Shown piece by piece: positions 1-28,507 of a DNA stretch of 28,507 nt. The notes under the pieces were generated by a model. The model was given only the letters and a program-made list of their open reading frames with translations. It searched no databases and was not told where the DNA came from. The DNA is from a virus. The first letter of the stretch is position 1. Every line of letters starts with the position of its first letter. A program made the position numbers and the translations under genes. The stretch is from positions 1 to 28,507 of the IMG/VR virus record IMGVR_UViG_3300045135_000496. The stretch is one strand, 5' to 3'.

Positions 1-223
1 TTAGTTCCTCATAAGCAGCAGCGATTGCGTTTTCAAAACCTCTGATGCGTCTGAGTATTGCTAGTTGACCTTTGTACTGATGTAGCTCCTCTAACGAGGT
101 TACACTCTCCAAAGAGTCAACTGATTCGATCATACTGTCAATATCTTCCATTAACAGCTTCCAACCATTGCGACTAAATAGATCAAAATAGTCTTCGTAT
201 TGCTTTTCAAGTGATTTGTCCAT
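1..223 (-). CDS. small hypothetical protein downstream of portal (3' end outside window)
   Basis: Translation from the ATG at 223 runs open to the left edge, giving at least 74 residues beginning MDKSLEKQYEDYFDLFSRNG. The TTA at positions 1-3 is not in frame, so the stop lies outside the window. A good Shine-Dalgarno (AAGGA, 8 bases before the ATG) and a near-consensus promoter just upstream support the start. The protein is acidic and predicted helical, with many D, E and L residues. I recognise no domain. Its place after the portal gene suggests a virion-assembly or head-module accessory role, but that is context only. Confidence 0.75.
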   Translation of the reverse strand, partial: MDKSLEKQYEDYFDLFSRNGWKLLMEDIDSMIESVDSLESVTSLEELHQYKGQLAILRRIRGFENAIAAAYEEL

Positions 224-248: not shown

Positions 249-277
249 ATTATACCACAAGTCAAGCTAAAAGTCAA
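249..277 (-). promoter_or_regulatory. sigma-70-like promoter, leftward, inside the head arm
   Basis: On the minus strand, TTGACT (277-272) and TATAAT (254-249) are separated by 17 bases. This is a near-perfect bacterial promoter about 25 bases upstream of the ATG at 223. Its -35 box overlaps the stop end of the 274-489 gene. It would give the genes to the left, probably scaffold and capsid genes outside the window, a separate and stronger start than the terminase/portal transcript. Recognition is by consensus and spacing only. Confidence 0.75.
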
Positions 278-489
278 GAACTTTTTGAACTTTTTTCTGA
301 GCCGCTAGGTTTAGCTGCTTGACGTGGCTTACGAGTTGTGGTAGACGGCTTAGAAGCCGCCTCCATTGTTTTGATTTTCTCGTCCAGCGCCTCGCATTGC
401 TGGCTCAATTGTTGGACCTGATTGCTGAGGCTGTTCAACTGATTGCTGAGGTTGTCCAAGATCTCCAAGACCTGTTTGGGCATTAGCAT
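274..489 (-). CDS. 71-aa coiled-coil protein overlapping the portal 3' end out of frame
   Basis: Residues 1-45 form a regular heptad-like pattern of L, V and I (LEILDNLSNQLNSLSNQVQQ and onward), a strong coiled-coil signature. Residues 46-71 are a Ser/Lys/Arg/Thr-rich basic tail. The first 140 bases lie inside the portal gene in another reading frame; the last 76 lie beyond the portal stop. Inside the portal coding sequence, AAAGGAAACAACAATG provides AGGA at 7 bases from the ATG at 489, a near-ideal ribosome site, and an in-frame ATG follows two codons later. Function is unknown; a small head-module, scaffold-like or DNA-associated protein would fit the coiled coil and basic tail. The alternative is a chance ORF in the low-complexity portal tail, but the internal ribosome site and the unique 3' part argue for a real gene. 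Confidence 0.65.
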   Translation of the reverse strand: MLMPKQVLEILDNLSNQLNSLSNQVQQLSQQCEALDEKIKTMEAASKPSTTTRKPRQAAKPSGSEKSSKSS

Positions 490-2416
490 TGTTGTTTCCT
501 TTCATGTTGATTGCTTGTTCTTTTAAGATTAATTCAGCTACACGAGCACGTTTCTCAAACTCTCTGTCATCTGCATCGCCAATCTCTAGGTTACTAGATA
601 GGACTTTGATGCGATCTGTCTGAGAGTCGTAGTTAGTGACTGCAGCTTCTGCTTTGTACTTCTCAGCTCGTGCCATAAAGTCAGCTGCTTGAGCTGCATA
701 CGCACTTGTCTGAGCCTGCTGCATAGCCATCTGAGCCTGTGCTTGCTGCATAGCCATTTGTTGTTGCTGTGGATCAGGCTGCGAAGCTTCCTTGAGACGT
801 GCAATGAGCTCTTCACGGTTAGCTAGGTTCATATTGTCAACAATTGACTCAATGAGCGTAGGGTACAGTGGAGACTCAGGACTCATTGTTTGCAATAGCT
901 GGACTAGCTGTGTTACTTCGTACTCACGAGCAATAATACCTAACGAGGACGATGCAGTGAACTGGTAGTCACTAACTGGGTAACGCTCTGGATCAAACTG
1001 CATGTAACGGTAAGCAGCTTTACGAACAAACGGTAACAAGAAGGACTCTTGGAAGTTGATTAGAGTTCGCTTATGACGTTTGATAATTGCACCCAGTGAC
1101 ATACTGATGCCCGCTGCAGTGCCTTCGCCGTTGATAGAGCCTGCAATACCTGCAGAGTCAATAGCCCCTGTAGCCTGCTGTACCATTGCCTGTAGTGAGG
1201 CAGCTTGGTTGAACGTATTAGGGTCTAAGTTACCGAACTTGAATGGTTGTAGGATCTCAGCAGGATTACCGTTAGTTAGTACAGTTTTCCCCGGTCTAAT
1301 CTCCATCTTAGTGCCACGTGGGAGACGAGAAGCATCCACAGCCATCATTGGGTGTACTGTGAGCGCTAGAGCATCAATACGAGCACGTAGTTCAGTATCA
1401 AGTGCTTTTTGACTATTGTAGCCCTTCTCACAGACTCCTCGTCCCCAGAAGCGTGAAGGAACTGCGTCCCAAGCAAAAGCAACTACAGGGCGGTCTTGCA
1501 TCATGTACGGGTTGATTTCTGCCTTAAGCAGTGTACCGCCGTTAGCAATAACAACAATAGCTTCAACGTACTTAGACTCGTCTTCTTCGTCTGTAAGTGC
1601 AACAATTTCTTCATCTTCGCCGACTGTAGCGTCTTCAAACAAATAACGTGGTACAAGGCCGTAGTATTTTGTTAGACGTACTTTGTCGTCACTATAGAGG
1701 TTCAAAGACTGGTCAGGTTCTAGATCAGTATCTGGAGCGTCAACTACAATGTCTTCGTCACGATAGATGCCACGCTCTTGCATAGTCTCTACTTGGTGCA
1801 GAGGCACAAACTCATCAATTGCTACACCTAGAGCTTCATCAATCGAAGTAGCTGCAGGATCAATCAAGAAGTTCTGAGGCAACACTGGGCGTAGTTTGAC
1901 TACTGTACGGTCTCGTTTCTCTACACCGACTGCTGTAGCTTGACCGTCCATCACAGGCTGTGTAGCTGGTCGAATGTCAGTAGTTTCTTCTAGAACTACC
2001 TCGCCTACACCAGTACCAAAGATAGCTGAGTTTAGGATACACTCTGCAACTGCTTTACGTACTTTGCAGTATTCAAAGTCCTCAGTCATCAGATTACGCA
2101 GTAGCTGTACGTCTAGAGCTTCAGTGTCACCTTTGTTGTCTTTAAGGTCAAACCACTTACCACGTCCAAACGTAGCTTCTTCTACTTCGGCTACAGAGCT
2201 CTCTACAGCCTGTTGTAGGGCTGGAGAGATGATCTTAGAGCGTTCAGAGCTACGCATAGAGTCAGAGCCGTCCCAAATACCACGCCATAGACGGTAGTAT
2301 TCATCAAACTTCTCTTTGTAGTTAGACTCATAATGCTCACGCCAGTTATTCGTCTTATCCATAACCCAATCTTCAAGGGTCTGTTCTATCAGAAATTCAT
2401 TTTCTTCAAAGTTCAT
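350..2416 (-). CDS. portal (head-tail connector) protein
   Basis: The 688-aa protein lies directly after the large terminase in transcription order and has the size and feel of large podovirus portals. It has an acidic, helical N-terminus (LEDWVMDKTNNWREHYESNY), a long alpha/beta middle containing the RPVVAFAWDAVPSRFWGRGV segment often seen near the portal stem, and a Gln/Ala-rich helical C-terminus (about residues 565-610, with a tandem MAMQQAQAQ-type repeat). The last 40 residues are N/Q/G-rich and probably disordered. In the virion it would form the dodecameric ring through which DNA is packaged and ejected. AGGA sits 7 bases upstream of the ATG, and the gene starts one base after the terminase stop. 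The call rests on position plus overall similarity to large phage portals; no catalytic residues can confirm it. Confidence 0.85.
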   Translation of the reverse strand: MNFEENEFLIEQTLEDWVMDKTNNWREHYESNYKEKFDEYYRLWRGIWDGSDSMRSSERSKIISPALQQAVESSVAEVEEATFGRGKWFDLKDNKGDTEALDVQLLRNLMTEDFEYCKVRKAVAECILNSAIFGTGVGEVVLEETTDIRPATQPVMDGQATAVGVEKRDRTVVKLRPVLPQNFLIDPAATSIDEALGVAIDEFVPLHQVETMQERGIYRDEDIVVDAPDTDLEPDQSLNLYSDDKVRLTKYYGLVPRYLFEDATVGEDEEIVALTDEEDESKYVEAIVVIANGGTLLKAEINPYMMQDRPVVAFAWDAVPSRFWGRGVCEKGYNSQKALDTELRARIDALALTVHPMMAVDASRLPRGTKMEIRPGKTVLTNGNPAEILQPFKFGNLDPNTFNQAASLQAMVQQATGAIDSAGIAGSINGEGTAAGISMSLGAIIKRHKRTLINFQESFLLPFVRKAAYRYMQFDPERYPVSDYQFTASSSLGIIAREYEVTQLVQLLQTMSPESPLYPTLIESIVDNMNLANREELIARLKEASQPDPQQQQMAMQQAQAQMAMQQAQTSAYAAQAADFMARAEKYKAEAAVTNYDSQTDRIKVLSSNLEIGDADDREFEKRARVAELILKEQAINMKGNNNANAQTGLGDLGQPQQSVEQPQQSGPTIEPAMRGAGRENQNNGGGF
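495..503 (-). promoter_or_regulatory. ribosome binding site inside the portal gene
   Basis: The minus strand reads GAAAGGAAA here, with the AGGA core (500-497) 7 bases before the ATG at 489. It lies within the portal coding frame, where it encodes Met-Lys-Gly-Asn-Asn-type residues. It decides the start of the overlapping 71-aa gene. Confidence 0.65.
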
Positions 2417-19605: not shown

Positions 19606-21639
19606 CTATGGGAAGCGATTGCCCATAGCCTCTGCTTGCTCTGCTTCAGCTGTCTGTAGAGCTGTAGCTTCCACTACTTCTTCAAACATGCCGTAGTTTA
19701 CGAGCAGGTCGTTGATAGCTATAGCGAGCTTATCAGCTGTGTTGAACTTCGGATTGTTAGTAGCCGCCAAGAGCTTATTAACCAACTTAGGGTTAGTAGA
19801 GACACGGGCTGCCACGTTAGGTAATCCAAACACAGCCGCTGCAGTAACAAGTCCAGAGCCACTAGCGTCAAAGATACCAAAACCAGCTGCTGCTTCAAGA
19901 CCTCGTATTACTAGAGATCCTGCAGGGCTCTGAGGCTTCTTAGACACATCATGTGCAAGGTTTAGGAAGCGCTTTAGAGCTACTGCCTTATCCTTGCCTA
20001 GAACTACCTCAGCTCTTTGTAGCTTCTTAGGATCATCGAGCTGACGTGCAATACGTGCAAAATGCTCAGGCTGAATAATCTCATCGCCTTGTGTCTTCAA
20101 GAGACCTGTAACGTAACCGTCACGGATCATCTCAACAGCTTCATCAGCAGTCTTAACACTTAGTCCATCAGCAACCTCTTTAGGCATCTGAGCGTATGCA
20201 GCTCTGACACTTGTTATAGCCTTCTTGACAGATTCTAAGTTATTAGCTTCTGTCAGTAGAGTGCCAAGAGGTTTGAAGTTACCTTTCTTGCCTGCCTGCT
20301 GTACAGCGTTCTTATTTAGCTCTGGTAAGATATTACCGATGCCTTCAGCGTATAAGTCCTTAGCGTTCTTATACAGTGCGCCAGCAGTCTTATCAACCCC
20401 TGTTAGCTGTGAAGCTACAGAGTCTCTAAACTCTTTAGAGAACTGTGCAAGCTGATAAGAAGCTACAGGATTGTAGTTAGGGTTGTTAAAGTCTCCTAAC
20501 GTATCAATCATCCTATTCATCTTCTGCTCAAAAGAGATCAGATCCATTGCTGGAGTCTGTTTCTTAAGTAATAGAGCATCAGTACCACGGCTAGATAGCT
20601 TTGACAGCTCCTCCATACGATCTTTAATGAACGTTAGAGTACTGTCGTCTAACTCACTCCCATAAGTACGTTTGAAGCCATCGATGAACGAAGACATCTT
20701 GTTTACAACTGCACCAGTCTCTACAGACTTGCCAGCCAACTTAGTCCCAACATCGTCTAGAGTCTTCGCATATGTAGCACCTAGAGCTTGTTTGCCCTGT
20801 GTGATGACAGTGTTCACAGCCTGTCCGATCTCTTCCGAGGTCATCTGAGATCCTACAGAGCCGTTGAATAGCTTGTCTAGTTCTGCGTTGACTACTAACT
20901 CTAAACGCTCCTTACGTGCGTTCATTATGGGTGCACCGCCTAGTGTATCACGAGACAGTCCATCAACGAAGTTAGCTATGCCACTGTTAGATCCTACCTC
21001 GGCAGGCGTTAGTGTTTCACCATAGCGATTGAGCGTAGTCTGCGTTTGAGCTATAGAGGCTTCACCACCTGCTTTAGGTGCTTGCTTTGATTTAGCGGCA
21101 ATCTCTGCAACAACTTCAGCAGGTGCTTTACCAGCTTTGAAGCCTTGGTACAGAGCCTTCATAACCTTACCAGTGCCTAGCGTAGCTACGTCAATAAGAC
21201 CGCTAGTAACTGCAGAGTTAAGGGCATTGGAGTAGTCTGGAGGAAGGTCTGCGTAGACATCTTCGTAGACTTCGCCACCAAACGTGCCTATCATACCACC
21301 AATAACGCCCCCTACAGGACCGCCTAGCATTGTACCAGTAACTGCACCACCTACACCACCTGCAATAGCTGCGTTGCTCTGTACAGCGTCTGATACGCCC
21401 TGTGCCGCTTCTTCGCCATAGCCAGCCAATTTACGCATATCGCCCATGAAGTCCCAGCTCTGCTCTTTAACAGGCGCTGATACAGGCTGTGGTGTCTGTG
21501 CAGGCTGTGGTGTCTGTGCAGGCTCGTCTTCTGGGAAGTTAGCATCTAAGTAGTTTGCTAGCTCATTGACAGCAGCAATGTCACCTGCCTCGTAAGCCTT
21601 CTGCAAGCCTTGGATCAACTGTTCCTTTGTTGGCTGCAT
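19606..21639 (-). CDS. probable internal virion / DNA ejection protein
   Basis: The 677-aa protein, last in the virion arm, holds the place of T7 gp16-like ejection proteins, though it is shorter than T7 gp16. The N-terminus has a short helical unit (EQLIQGLQKAYEAGD). An 18-bp perfect tandem duplication (21483-21518) encodes TPQPAQ repeats. Residues 91-122 are a glycine-rich, membrane-like stretch (GGVGGAVTGTMLGG and GVIGGMIGTFGG). The rest is long and helical. Such glycine zippers suit a protein inserted in the host envelope at infection. I see no transglycosylase signature. AAGGAGG lies 5 bases before the ATG. Confidence 0.6.
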   Translation of the reverse strand: MQPTKEQLIQGLQKAYEAGDIAAVNELANYLDANFPEDEPAQTPQPAQTPQPVSAPVKEQSWDFMGDMRKLAGYGEEAAQGVSDAVQSNAAIAGGVGGAVTGTMLGGPVGGVIGGMIGTFGGEVYEDVYADLPPDYSNALNSAVTSGLIDVATLGTGKVMKALYQGFKAGKAPAEVVAEIAAKSKQAPKAGGEASIAQTQTTLNRYGETLTPAEVGSNSGIANFVDGLSRDTLGGAPIMNARKERLELVVNAELDKLFNGSVGSQMTSEEIGQAVNTVITQGKQALGATYAKTLDDVGTKLAGKSVETGAVVNKMSSFIDGFKRTYGSELDDSTLTFIKDRMEELSKLSSRGTDALLLKKQTPAMDLISFEQKMNRMIDTLGDFNNPNYNPVASYQLAQFSKEFRDSVASQLTGVDKTAGALYKNAKDLYAEGIGNILPELNKNAVQQAGKKGNFKPLGTLLTEANNLESVKKAITSVRAAYAQMPKEVADGLSVKTADEAVEMIRDGYVTGLLKTQGDEIIQPEHFARIARQLDDPKKLQRAEVVLGKDKAVALKRFLNLAHDVSKKPQSPAGSLVIRGLEAAAGFGIFDASGSGLVTAAAVFGLPNVAARVSTNPKLVNKLLAATNNPKFNTADKLAIAINDLLVNYGMFEEVVEATALQTAEAEQAEAMGNRFP

Positions 21640-21640
21640 A

Positions 21641-22981
21641 TTAGCCTCCTTGTGGTAGGTATTTACGAGCGTTAGGCGCTAGAGCTGGCTGCTCAGACTT
21701 CTTAGCTTCTGAAGGAGCTTGGTAGCCTGCAGCCTGTTTAGCAGCCGCCCAAGCAGCATCTGGTTCGAACCCAATAATACTGTTGTTGTCTGCAATGTGC
21801 TTGTTGTAGGCTTTGTAGTATTCTTTAGATACATTAGCCAGACGCATTACCTTCGTTAGCCACTCAGTCCATTCAGCCGAACTAGCGTTATCAGGCGGTA
21901 CAGTCTTTAGAGCCTGTTCCATGTCCTTATCTGTAGCAGGTCCGGGAGGAAGGAATCCTAGAGCCTCACGAAGAGCTGCAGCAGAGGTAGCTGTTTTGAT
22001 TGCAGAGACTTTGTTACGTAGACCTGCCTTGTCCTTTAGAGCTGCTTCAATAGTAGCTCCAGAGCCTCCAGAGAATGGGGTAGCTGCTAAGTCATCCAAG
22101 ATTTCATTGTAGCTAAGAGTGTTAGCGTTAATGTCTTTGATGCCATCAGAGTTAGCTTTGTACTGCTTAGTCGTTGTAGCATCTGACTTAGGAAGAGGCT
22201 GTAAACGCTTCTCGCCAATTACCTCACCAGTAGTAGGGTCTTGGAAGTACTTATAAATACGTCCGTCTTCGCCAACTTCTTCTACTTCGACACCTTTAGC
22301 ACCTTCATTAGGACCAGAGATGAAAACCCCTTTCTCACGGTCAAAGATGTTCTTACCAACAGGGACGTAGCGTTCACCCCCTTGTTTAGCTGTAGCGGCT
22401 ACTCGCATTTCCTCAAACGCACCACGAGCTTGCTCACCAAAGCCTGCTTTAGCCAGTGCAGCTCCTAACTGTCGGTAGTACTCTACCATGTCACCATCCT
22501 CTGGCATAGGCACAGAAGCTGTGACGTCATCAATAGCCTCTGCCTGCTCTCGGTCAGATACTTCGTAGCCAAACCGTGTAGTAGCTCGTTGTTCCTGAGC
22601 AGCTGCACGAGCATCTTGAGCGTCTGTCCTAGCAATACGTTTACCTTCAGCAAGTACTTTGTTTGCCGCATCAGGGAAGCCAGCCTTACGTAGTGCTTCT
22701 GCGCCACGTTGGATTGATGCAGGGTCATTGAAGTCGATGCTAGAGTATAGTGCTTTAGCTTGATCTGCTTGACGCTCTGTAGTTGTACGGGTGTCAGCGC
22801 CTGTTACGTTACCGATGTTAGTACGGAGTCTACGTGCACGTTCTGGAGCAAACAAAGTAGCTGCAGAGCCTTGCTGTAGCTGTTCACCTAATGCACGATC
22901 AGCAGCTAGTCTGCCTGCTTCGTTTGACATTGGTCCTAACATGTCTCCGAACATGCTTTGAATTGATAGTGGATCAGCCAT
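21641..22981 (-). CDS. probable internal virion protein
   Basis: The 446-aa protein begins MADPLSIQSMFGDMLGPMSN and is rich in Ala, Arg, Glu and Gln with long predicted helices (GAEALRKAGFPDAANKVLAE, then AQDARAAAQEQRATTRFGYEV). It has no enzyme motif. Between the 334-aa and 677-aa virion proteins, it takes the place of T7 gp15 in the order 14-15-16, so an internal core protein is the best contextual reading. AGGAGG overlaps the preceding stop. It ends one base before the next gene's ATG. Confidence 0.6.
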   Translation of the reverse strand: MADPLSIQSMFGDMLGPMSNEAGRLAADRALGEQLQQGSAATLFAPERARRLRTNIGNVTGADTRTTTERQADQAKALYSSIDFNDPASIQRGAEALRKAGFPDAANKVLAEGKRIARTDAQDARAAAQEQRATTRFGYEVSDREQAEAIDDVTASVPMPEDGDMVEYYRQLGAALAKAGFGEQARGAFEEMRVAATAKQGGERYVPVGKNIFDREKGVFISGPNEGAKGVEVEEVGEDGRIYKYFQDPTTGEVIGEKRLQPLPKSDATTTKQYKANSDGIKDINANTLSYNEILDDLAATPFSGGSGATIEAALKDKAGLRNKVSAIKTATSAAALREALGFLPPGPATDKDMEQALKTVPPDNASSAEWTEWLTKVMRLANVSKEYYKAYNKHIADNNSIIGFEPDAAWAAAKQAAGYQAPSEAKKSEQPALAPNARKYLPQGG

Positions 22982-22989
22982 ATAGCCTC

Positions 22990-23994
22990 CTAGAAGATTC
23001 GGTTGTAAAGGTCTTCAAGACCGCTAGAGACTGCACTGCCTACCATGTCTCCAAGAGTACCTTGGTTAGACGCAGAACCTGCTGCAGCCACTGTAGGGGC
23101 GAACATACCCGCAAGGCTATTCATGTAAGTCTGGTATAGGTTAGAAGCCTCCTTCTCACCAGCGACTTGTGCAGTCAATACAGGAGTGATAGCACTCTGT
23201 AGGGCTTCAGAGCCACTTAGACGACCAGCACCAACAACCTGTTGAATAGGTGTAGAAGCCTGTAGAGCATCAAACATCATAGACTGAGGCTGATAAGCCT
23301 GACTAGTCAATGTACCTAACAAGCCTTGTTGTGCTTGTAGCTCATTAGCTGCTGCAGTCTGTGCAGTTAGGAAGTCCTTAGACTGTTGCTCAAGTAGTGC
23401 TTGCTGACGTGCAAACTCTTCAGGGCTACCGCCGCCATATAGAGAACTACCTAGACCTAGACGGCCCTGTGCAGCCATCTGTTGCTGTAGTTGTGCTTGT
23501 TGACGATCAATCTCAGGCTGACGTGCAGCTTGTAGGCGATTGTAGATGTCTTGTTCTCTAGCACCAGTACCAGTAAGAAGGCCTCCTAGAACGCTCTCAG
23601 CGCCCGTTAGAGCCTGTTGTGTCATTGCCTCTTGCTGTTGACTAGGAGTAAGGCTAATGTCGCCCTGAGCGCCTATACCAATGCTTCCTAGTGCTGGTGA
23701 AGAGGTAATAGTGAATGGAGTAAATGCTGCAGCTTCTTGAGCTCGGTTAGCAATGTCCTGTGCAGTAGATAGTGCTTGAGGCCCTAACGAACGTGCTTGG
23801 TCCATAGCCTCGTTAGTGGCTGCTAGATCAATACCAGAGCTAATAGCACTAGCAATGTTAGAACCACTAAATAGATTACCTAGCCAGCTACTGCTAGCAG
23901 CATTAGCAGCGTTAGCTACGTCGCCTGCTGTATAGTAACTGCCATCAGTAGGGGTCTGCATCAGCTGGTCATACATCTCGCTGAATGTTGCCAT
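22990..23994 (-). CDS. Ala/Gln-rich virion protein (internal core candidate)
   Basis: The 334-aa protein starts MATFSEMYDQLMQTPTDGSY. Residues 40-60 contain a small Gly/Ser/Ala-rich stretch (SGSNIASAISSGIDLAA). Its middle is very Gln/Ala-rich and helical (REQDIYNRLQAARQPEIDRQ, then QQQMAAQGRLGLGSSLYGGG). As far as I recall, proteins with a REQDIYNRLQAARQPE-type block recur in marine podoviruses as uncharacterised virion proteins. T7 gp14-like position suggests an internal virion role. It shares one base with the preceding gene (TAATG). Confidence 0.65.
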   Translation of the reverse strand: MATFSEMYDQLMQTPTDGSYYTAGDVANAANAASSSWLGNLFSGSNIASAISSGIDLAATNEAMDQARSLGPQALSTAQDIANRAQEAAAFTPFTITSSPALGSIGIGAQGDISLTPSQQQEAMTQQALTGAESVLGGLLTGTGAREQDIYNRLQAARQPEIDRQQAQLQQQMAAQGRLGLGSSLYGGGSPEEFARQQALLEQQSKDFLTAQTAAANELQAQQGLLGTLTSQAYQPQSMMFDALQASTPIQQVVGAGRLSGSEALQSAITPVLTAQVAGEKEASNLYQTYMNSLAGMFAPTVAAAGSASNQGTLGDMVGSAVSSGLEDLYNRIF

Positions 23995-26375: not shown

Positions 26376-28507
26376 TTATACCAACTTAGCTTTAAGTAGT
26401 TTTTGTGATAGTCTGTTGACTTCTGTCTCAGGCATAGAGAAGAGATCTTCATCGCCCTCTAACAAGTCTCTGTCAGCGCCTACAGAGGCTATAGAGACTG
26501 TACCCTTAGCAAGTCCTTCAAGGTCTCCGAAGTCTAGGTTAGGTAAATCAATACCTTCTAAGCTACCGATGTTAGTGTTTGACCAGTCTAGTTCGCCTAT
26601 GTCAACACCTAGTTCACCTAACTGTGGTAGGTCTACTTCTGGTAGAGTGACATCTACGCCTGACCAATCTAAGTCTGGTGCATTGATGTCTAGGCTAGGT
26701 AGATCTGCAAGGTCAATACCAAGATCAAGAGCTGGAACACCTGAGAAGTCTATAGAGCCTATGTTAAGATCTAGATCGATCATCTCTGGTAGATTGATGT
26801 CTGGAAGGTCTCCAAAAGCTATACCACCAAAGTCAATGTCAGGTAGATCGAAGTCTAACTCATTAGCAATGTAGTCGGGTACTTCGAAGTCTGGTAGTTC
26901 ACCACCTTCTTCAACGTAGGTAACAATACCGTCCACTAGAGCCTTGTTAGTATCTCCTGTTTGGTCATACGTATTAAGACTCTCTACAGAGGCTTTGCCT
27001 AGAGGGTTATCAAGTCCTAGATCCTGTCCGTAGACGTCTCCTAACACACTAACACGGTCTTCGCCTGCAGCAATACGTAGAGCTGTTTCTGTAACTTCAC
27101 TGTACCCATCAGGTAGTATTGATGTTATAGAGTCACCGTAAGTAGATATTGCAGCATCTACAATGTCTTCACCGCTGTTTAGCTTCGCAGTGAACTCAAC
27201 ACTCTTCATAAGCTCAGGGGCTTTGACGTTTAGCTGATTAGCTACAGCGTCTAGACCATCTGAAGCTATTGAAGAAGCTACCTTCTCTACAGTGATTTCT
27301 TTGTCCCACGGATTAAAGTAGTCTCTCCAGCTAGGAGTCGAACGTCCACTATACAGTTTCTCATTGACTTCAGCAGATGGAGCACTATCAGAGCCTATCG
27401 AGCTATTGTAGTTTGAGTTGCCTATGCCGTTAGCTAGAGAGTAGCCTATATCTACCTCACCACTCTCAAAGGCATCGTTAGTTGTCTGTACAGCTTCTCC
27501 AGTATTTCTGAACATATCGTTTAGAGATACGTATTTATCTGTGCCTATGACACTTAGGTTGATCTTAGCGTCACCGTCACCATTAACAACTGAACTGATC
27601 TGTAGAGGTTTAAGCTGCTCTACAATACTATCAGCCATGAATGCGCCCTGTGCTGTTGACAGAGGGCTTGCACCAAATACTGTACCTACAAAGCCTACAG
27701 CCTCTGCCGCAAGTGCTGGAGCTACGTACAGATTAGCGAACGTCTCAGCGGCTAAGGTAGCTACGCCTGCAACGCTTATGTCATCTTCAGCGACAATCTC
27801 ACCATCTTGTACTGTTAGCTTAGGATTAGAGTCAATGATGTCAGTTCCTAACACTGAATCAATAGGCTCTAAAAGACTCCACCAAGTAGAGCCCTGCTCT
27901 TTAGCCCTAGCAGCTTGCATAGCAAGAGCTTCAACGCCTTTAGAGTTGGTTAGATCAAAGTTCTCACGTATGTAATCTTCGCCTACAAGATCAACTAACT
28001 CTGAAGGGTCTAGTTCTTTGTTGTAGCCTGAGTAATCAAGCATAACTGCTAAGTCTTTTTCAATCCCTGCAGTCTCTAAGACGTTTAACTGTTCTGCACC
28101 TTCAGTGCCTGTGATGTTATACTTACCACCTACTACAAGATCTGGAAGCTCTCCAGCACCGAAGGCTTTTGCAACATCAGAGTCTTCATTGCCTGTTACG
28201 TTATCAGTCAGCCAGTCGAAGAATCCTTTGTCGGCTATAGAGCCTACTTCAATCATTTCAATCTGTTCAGGATCTTGACCAAAGCCTTTAGCTAGAGTAG
28301 TGTATTGATCACGTAGCGCTTGGTTGTCTATAGCGCTTGTAAGTAGACCTTCAAACTGATCTGTACTATCTACAGTCTTAGTTTCACCTGTGTACGGATC
28401 TACGAAGCTATATTGAATACCACCAGCTACGTCACCAGTAATGTTGAAGGCATCTAAGCCATAAGCATCTTCTAAAGCCTTCTCTGCAGCCTGTGCAGAT
28501 GCGAAGT
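26376..28507 (-). CDS. large acidic repeat virion protein (5' end outside window)
   Basis: The reading frame is open to the right edge: 83 more codons precede the ATG at 28256, which has no ribosome site. At least 709 residues are visible. The first visible part reads FASAQAAEKALEDAYGLDAF. Most of it is acidic with no clear domain. The C-terminal portion, about 26510-26900, is an array of alternating Asp and Leu/Ile/Pro words (LPDIDF, LPDINLPE, IDLADLPSLD, LPEVDLPQL), suggesting a beta-solenoid or extended fibre. The last residues are basic (QKLLKAKLV). It is likely a structural protein of the tail or internal core; the function is not recognised. Confidence 0.75.
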   Translation of the reverse strand, partial: FASAQAAEKALEDAYGLDAFNITGDVAGGIQYSFVDPYTGETKTVDSTDQFEGLLTSAIDNQALRDQYTTLAKGFGQDPEQIEMIEVGSIADKGFFDWLTDNVTGNEDSDVAKAFGAGELPDLVVGGKYNITGTEGAEQLNVLETAGIEKDLAVMLDYSGYNKELDPSELVDLVGEDYIRENFDLTNSKGVEALAMQAARAKEQGSTWWSLLEPIDSVLGTDIIDSNPKLTVQDGEIVAEDDISVAGVATLAAETFANLYVAPALAAEAVGFVGTVFGASPLSTAQGAFMADSIVEQLKPLQISSVVNGDGDAKINLSVIGTDKYVSLNDMFRNTGEAVQTTNDAFESGEVDIGYSLANGIGNSNYNSSIGSDSAPSAEVNEKLYSGRSTPSWRDYFNPWDKEITVEKVASSIASDGLDAVANQLNVKAPELMKSVEFTAKLNSGEDIVDAAISTYGDSITSILPDGYSEVTETALRIAAGEDRVSVLGDVYGQDLGLDNPLGKASVESLNTYDQTGDTNKALVDGIVTYVEEGGELPDFEVPDYIANELDFDLPDIDFGGIAFGDLPDINLPEMIDLDLNIGSIDFSGVPALDLGIDLADLPSLDINAPDLDWSGVDVTLPEVDLPQLGELGVDIGELDWSNTNIGSLEGIDLPNLDFGDLEGLAKGTVSIASVGADRDLLEGDEDLFSMPETEVNRLSQKLLKAKLV

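Follow-up and report, generated by a model that had tools for sequence, protein, structure and literature searches.

A candidate coiled-coil gene overlapping the portal 3' end in an uncultivated phage lineage

Among annotated virus gene overlaps, 84% are shorter than 50 nt (PMC7017920). Real co-directional prokaryotic overlaps longer than 60 nt have been treated as annotation errors (PMC2478687). Among 715, one survey found no real co-directional overlap that reached 60 bp, and the holD/rimI overlap of Enterobacteria extends to 56 bp (Palleja et al. 2008, PMC2478687). The pair described here, a phage portal gene and a small coiled-coil gene (cc), resembles holD/rimI as a real co-directional overlap conserved across species, but its overlaps measure 77–161 nt and cc is overlapped along its whole length in 61 loci. 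Overlaps formed by loss of an upstream stop codon (PMC3887535; Sabath et al. 2008, PMC2542354) likewise let the upstream frame run on to the next stop, in frame +1 (phase 1); the portal/cc pair differs from them in that the change may leave the downstream protein unaltered, that the pair has switched state repeatedly and that the extended tail appears to be under selection for composition. Overprinted virus genes (reviewed in PMC8227390) share the unequal constraint in dual coding and the one low-complexity product, whereas cc has nonoverlapping homologues and the overlap is an optional state, not clearly its birthplace. In the head operons of HMO-2011 and Vibrio phage CHOED, with SU10/P22-type portals, the portal is likewise followed by a small gene, head genes and the coat, but that small gene resembles by eye the gene downstream of cc (gene 2) and not cc, which is an extra in the uncultivated lineage.

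A literature search for a portal-overlapping gene found nothing specific. The portal/cc pair offers a long co-directional overlap with replicated evolutionary evidence in both frames, and gene callers that bar long same-strand overlaps are expected to overlook cc in many such phages.

A second reading frame in the portal 3' end

The window, by which we mean the whole virus record of 28,507 bases, carries both genes on its minus strand. The portal (350..2416, 688 aa; stop codon read from the sequence at 350..352) is of SU10/P22 type and matched PF23899 SU10_portal in Pfam (5.1e-22; 78.5 bits, above the cutoff of 30) and a PHROG portal profile (7.3e-52). Within its 3' end, an ATG opens the 71-aa cc frame at 274..489, which has 140 nt in common with the portal (350..489) and extends 76 nt past the portal stop, exactly as the original prediction had placed it; cc is read in frame +1 relative to the portal, whose side of the dual-coding stretch is a Gly/Gln/Pro/Asn-rich tail. 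The AGGA proposed to lie 7 bases 5' of the ATG was found at 500-497 as the core of a Shine–Dalgarno sequence AAGGA at 501-497 (497..501, minus strand), overlying portal Lys-Gly codons and separated by 7 nt from the cc ATG at 489-487. A strong coiled coil and a basic tail had also been predicted, and both are borne out: within the coiled coil of approximately residues 4–45, residues 4–43 show heptad (3.5-residue) hydrophobic periodicity (p = 0.0002 in comparison with shuffles), and the last 25 residues, part of a Ser/Lys-rich tail, have a net charge of +6. Against the annotated virus overlaps cited above, the 140 nt are indeed unusual in length. Gene 2 follows at 2..223 (minus strand), cut by the window edge, and the same order is seen in relatives, where it encodes about 80 aa. 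Elsewhere in the window, four large ORFs of the structural half (677, 446, 334 and 626 aa; 19606-23994 and 26376-28256, minus strand) had no PHROG match at 0.001.

Portal homologues were pulled from IMG/VR with three queries, giving 239 loci including the window, of which 232 had a complete portal; the relatives are metagenomic contigs. Searching with a profile of the small protein near the portal end, and then farther downstream, we found a cc homologue in 209 of the 232 (202 near the portal end and 7 farther downstream), while the remaining 23 either ended too early or carried a collagen-like gene after the portal. The cc-bearing relatives are mostly marine phages. No cultured relative closer than about 25% portal identity was found, the best isolate portal being at about 25%. 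A collagen-like gene also separates cc from the portal in scattered portal lineages (L075, L078, L080, L085, L089, L102, L137, L138, L148, L154, L186, L202, L222 and others), with an N-terminal segment of the type DLKLAAIYDKLESKI followed by Gly-X-Y repeats; its recurrence at one spot suggests a mobile cassette.

When codons were shuffled synonymously with the portal tail protein held fixed, chance left the cc frame open in 13% of cases for the window (median, 46%), and an open frame is therefore not striking by itself; the evidence for cc is comparative. These shuffles are what speaks for a spurious frame, open by chance in low-complexity DNA, a reading that is contradicted by the conservation of cc, its Shine–Dalgarno sequences, the position of its start, indels of heptad length and stand-alone homologues. 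The frame, start and position of cc are conserved in more than 200 relatives, and in none of the long-overlap relatives is the cc frame interrupted by a stop, so the frame is kept as the original prediction required. A Shine–Dalgarno-like match of at least 4 nt precedes 71 of the 73 distinct long-overlap cc starts (at least 5 nt in 49 of them), against 24% and 7%, respectively, of 1,332 control ATGs lying in that frame within portal genes; together with the homologues, this upholds the proposal of an out-of-frame gene with what would be an internal ribosome-binding site of its own. As an imprint of the cc start, the portal residues encoded across it are Asn-Ala-Asn or Asn-Val-Asn in 43 of the 73 loci, from AATGCTAA-like sequence. 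The comparative data already refute the chance reading, to which we assign next to no probability, and cc is very probably a real, translated gene, dual-coded with the portal tail.

Overlap states and their switches

The loci fall into distinct classes. In 109 "long" loci, cc starts 77–161 nt inside the portal; in 91 "short" loci, it starts between 26 nt inside and 13 nt past the portal; and in 9 "separated" loci, it lies 99–3345 nt after it. The lengths are bimodal, with no overlap of 27–76 nt among the portal/cc loci, and in all long and all overlapped short loci the overlap is congruent to 2 modulo 3, that is, in one relative frame.

Two sister pairs differ in state by a single base. In L181/L194, the portal stop TAA aligns with CAA and the cc codon is CCT in one and CCC in the other, both Pro; in L155/L130, CTTAAG faces CTCAAG and cc reads Leu-Lys in both. 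The short and long states thus differ by one T/C base at the portal stop, silent in cc, the direction of change being unpolarised. More widely, the portal stop of short loci commonly falls at cc codons 3–4 or 6–7, over codon pairs such as Thr-Lys (ACT AAG), Ser-Asn, Arg-Glu and the like. By the sister-pair comparison and this codon tally, the counterpart in the window is 476..478 (minus strand), where the portal reads CAA, made of the third base of cc Pro codon 4 and the AA of Lys codon 5 (CCC AAA). On the portal tree, whose root is uncertain, at least 14 changes of state are needed. Two overlap states with several independent switches constitute a natural experiment on the gain and loss of overlapping genes, and equally on the role of the portal C-terminal tail.

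One locus, L023, has a portal core near-identical to that of L025, whereas the end of its portal, its cc and the DNA downstream match the L036 type. This places a recombination joint close to the 3' end of the portal, and some switches came about by recombination rather than point change.

In 98 loci, including L049, L050 and L079, a conserved small gene, weakly DUF5754-like, follows the portal, and in 61 of the long loci its start coincides with the portal stop or lies no more than a few bases from it. In these, portal and next gene together cover all of cc in other frames. In L049 and L050, cc spans -110 to +73 and the next gene begins at -1, relative to the portal end. We give roughly even weight to the broad reading that, in this widespread lineage of uncultivated phages, a structural gene often lies wholly atop the portal and the next gene, and that a one-base silent switch tunes the length of the portal and its disordered tail while leaving the small protein untouched. 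The DUF5754-like sequence runs 'KLARAGVSGYNKPKRTP...VVVAKEGDK..KTIRFG', and homologues occur in cobaviruses, cyanophages, pelagiphages and HMO-2011; those whose position was checked lie apart from the portal. A parallel in Celeribacter phage P12053L, where a homologue of this gene follows a small gene, was rejected, the small protein there having a membrane segment and not being cc-like.

Constraint on the two reading frames

We computed substitution rates from 35 disjoint pairs picked by portal-core divergence and expressed them relative to portal-core third positions, as counts and not from a full codon model. In the overlap, the second base of a cc codon is the third of a portal codon, and the third base of a cc codon is the first of a portal codon. 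The relative rates were 0.72 [0.56–0.88] at cc-first/portal-second, 0.46 [0.37–0.54] at cc-second/portal-third and 0.93 [0.80–1.06] at cc-third/portal-first positions; the ratio of cc third to cc second positions, 2.04 [1.74–2.44], indicates purifying selection on cc in its own frame. Portal third positions in the overlap thus evolve at less than half the rate of those in the core, which is the excess conservation that had been proposed as a check on the gene. The cc third positions of short loci, where no portal frame is present, gave 0.87, on a par with the overlap, and the rate at portal first positions is about four times as high in the tail as in the portal core. Indels within the overlap peak at seven codons, or one heptad (29 of 75). 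With slow second and free third positions, the sequence constraint is borne by the coiled-coil frame and, on this comparison, the coiled coil is what selection keeps in the overlap; cc is constrained at the level of residues and the portal frame in its composition and openness.

The portal tail in the overlap is rich in Gly, Gln, Pro, Ala and Asn. Its free first positions, at nearly the synonymous-like rate of the core and far above core first positions, and the wide sequence divergence among tails are what one would expect if the long tail had no function, the portal entering cc only for want of a stop and cc alone mattering. Against this stands the openness of the portal frame: with the cc protein fixed and synonymous codons taken from the locus's own portal gene, the probability of an open portal frame had a median of 0.008 (0.002 in the window), while short and separated loci looked random, although the test is partly circular in that long loci were selected for being open. 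The test of T depletion is not circular and considers T at cc third positions only at sites where no stop would form. T at those sites in the overlap was at 0.24 [0.19–0.29] of expectation (0.32 in the window clade), whereas in the remainder of cc, which is read in one frame only, the window clade gave 0.99 [0.80–1.18]. At cc third positions of separated and short loci the values were 1.15 and 0.76, respectively, the latter meaning that the overlap does not account for all of the depletion. A T there would place Phe, Tyr, Cys, Trp, Ser or Leu in the portal tail. A fourfold depletion even where no stop forms, which disappears once the same genes are read in one frame only, and the empty interval in the bimodal overlap lengths also argue against a functionless tail, which we consider unlikely; by its base composition, the portal tail is selected for what amino acids it contains.

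Origin of the overlap and place in the head operon

The original prediction took cc to be overprinted, born in the low-complexity portal tail. This is unsupported: cc is separate or barely overlapping in many relatives, and homologues outside the overlap, just after the portal or 1–3.4 kb away, are not what de novo overprinting calls for. On the other hand, within the overlap the portal frame (-0.21) departs less from the codon usage typical of the genome than the cc frame does (-0.32); under the Pavesi criterion, cc would then be the newer frame and the portal frame the older.

An additional locus set, gathered around a portal of 57% identity, bears on the matter from both sides. In L245 and its kin, the cc profile detected no cc beside the portal, and cc is thus not essential across the whole family; a portal without detectable cc is also what its birth in the portal tail would leave behind, and the lack of polarity in the one-base switches likewise suits that birth. 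In L310-L319 of the same set, cc is present with an overlap of 4 nt or near zero, and these loci adjoin the MAD root of the portal tree, MAD being a weak guide. Rooting with the HMO-2011, CRP-345 and CHOED portals as outgroups was discarded, as the joining branch of about 5 changes per site made the root meaningless. Within the clade lacking cc, weak cc-profile matches were seen about 4.6–5.5 kb after the portal (L262, L253, L265 and L289); the small protein matched there combines a coiled coil with what may be a glycine-rich membrane segment (MFAGAMMISMGLGGLGSTLF) and is probably unrelated to cc.

The portal ends themselves differ between the states. Two simple patterns found a helix motif (IVxxQM or similar) at the end of 69 of 127 unique nonoverlapping portal tails and of 0 of 100 long-overlap tails, and the distance from the cc start to the conserved portal motif LKE has a median of 40 nt in long and 64 nt in short loci. 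Loss of the helix motif and a cc start nearer to LKE are consistent with a portal that lost its old end and then ran through into cc, its low-complexity tail having the look of an added part, or replacement. Relatives that stop earlier and a changed base in the long form were both found, as would be expected of an overlap arising by 3' extension of the portal. Birth of cc in the portal tail, with later escape through gain of a portal stop or insertion between the genes, is further opposed by residue-level constraint falling on cc and not on the portal tail, and we hold it to be improbable; we regard extension of the portal into cc as the likelier course.

The explanation that we propose starts from a conserved cc at the junction of the portal and the next head-assembly gene, which, to judge from conservation, would be translated from its own Shine–Dalgarno sequence and start codon within the portal 3' end. 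In the window clade and many others, no portal stop lies near the cc start, and the portal frame continues for 77–161 nt through cc and gains a disordered Gly/Gln/Pro/Asn-rich tail. In the two sister pairs, a T/C change at a cc wobble position makes or removes the portal TAA while remaining silent in cc. On this account cc predates the long overlap, and the portal of the window clade may have lost its C-terminal helix and then extended into cc.

In relatives, portal and cc are followed by gene 2, often by an FmdB-like zinc ribbon, and then by two proteins that we named by eye from their sequence and place in the order: one scaffold-like (about 270 aa) and one capsid-like (about 311 aa). From the position of the gene and its coiled coil and basic tail, cc is plausibly a small oligomeric head-assembly factor at the portal vertex; its specific role we offer as a guess, held at somewhat less than even confidence. 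In P22, the C-terminus of the portal is located within the head; it is partly unfolded at the procapsid stage and in the virion forms a barrel with DNA around it (PMC5290284).

In searches of cc against PHROG and Pfam, no single family drew matches from more than 5 of the 55 members, and the Pfam matches were below cutoff. Weak profile matches, including spanin, Lpp, COG6 and others, were dismissed as generic coiled-coil matches. Two of them, to the Rz-like spanin PHROG 739 (E 0.019) and to Pfam LPP (7.7e-5, below its cutoff), would point to a lysis component, an Rz-like spanin or Lpp-like protein; but the matches are scattered over dozens of unrelated coiled-coil families, we saw by eye no signal peptide, lipobox or membrane segment in cc, and the gene belongs to the head operon, with the portal on one side and the scaffold on the other, all of which leaves a lysis role very unlikely. 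As for gene 2, the small genes that resemble it by eye are L082:7334-7510 (HMO-2011 gp50) and L084:6001-6231 (CHOED_090), with HRQQGAIAVLRRLKQL compared to HQYKGQLAILRRIRGFEN, and HMO-2011 gp50 overlaps its own portal by 35 nt.
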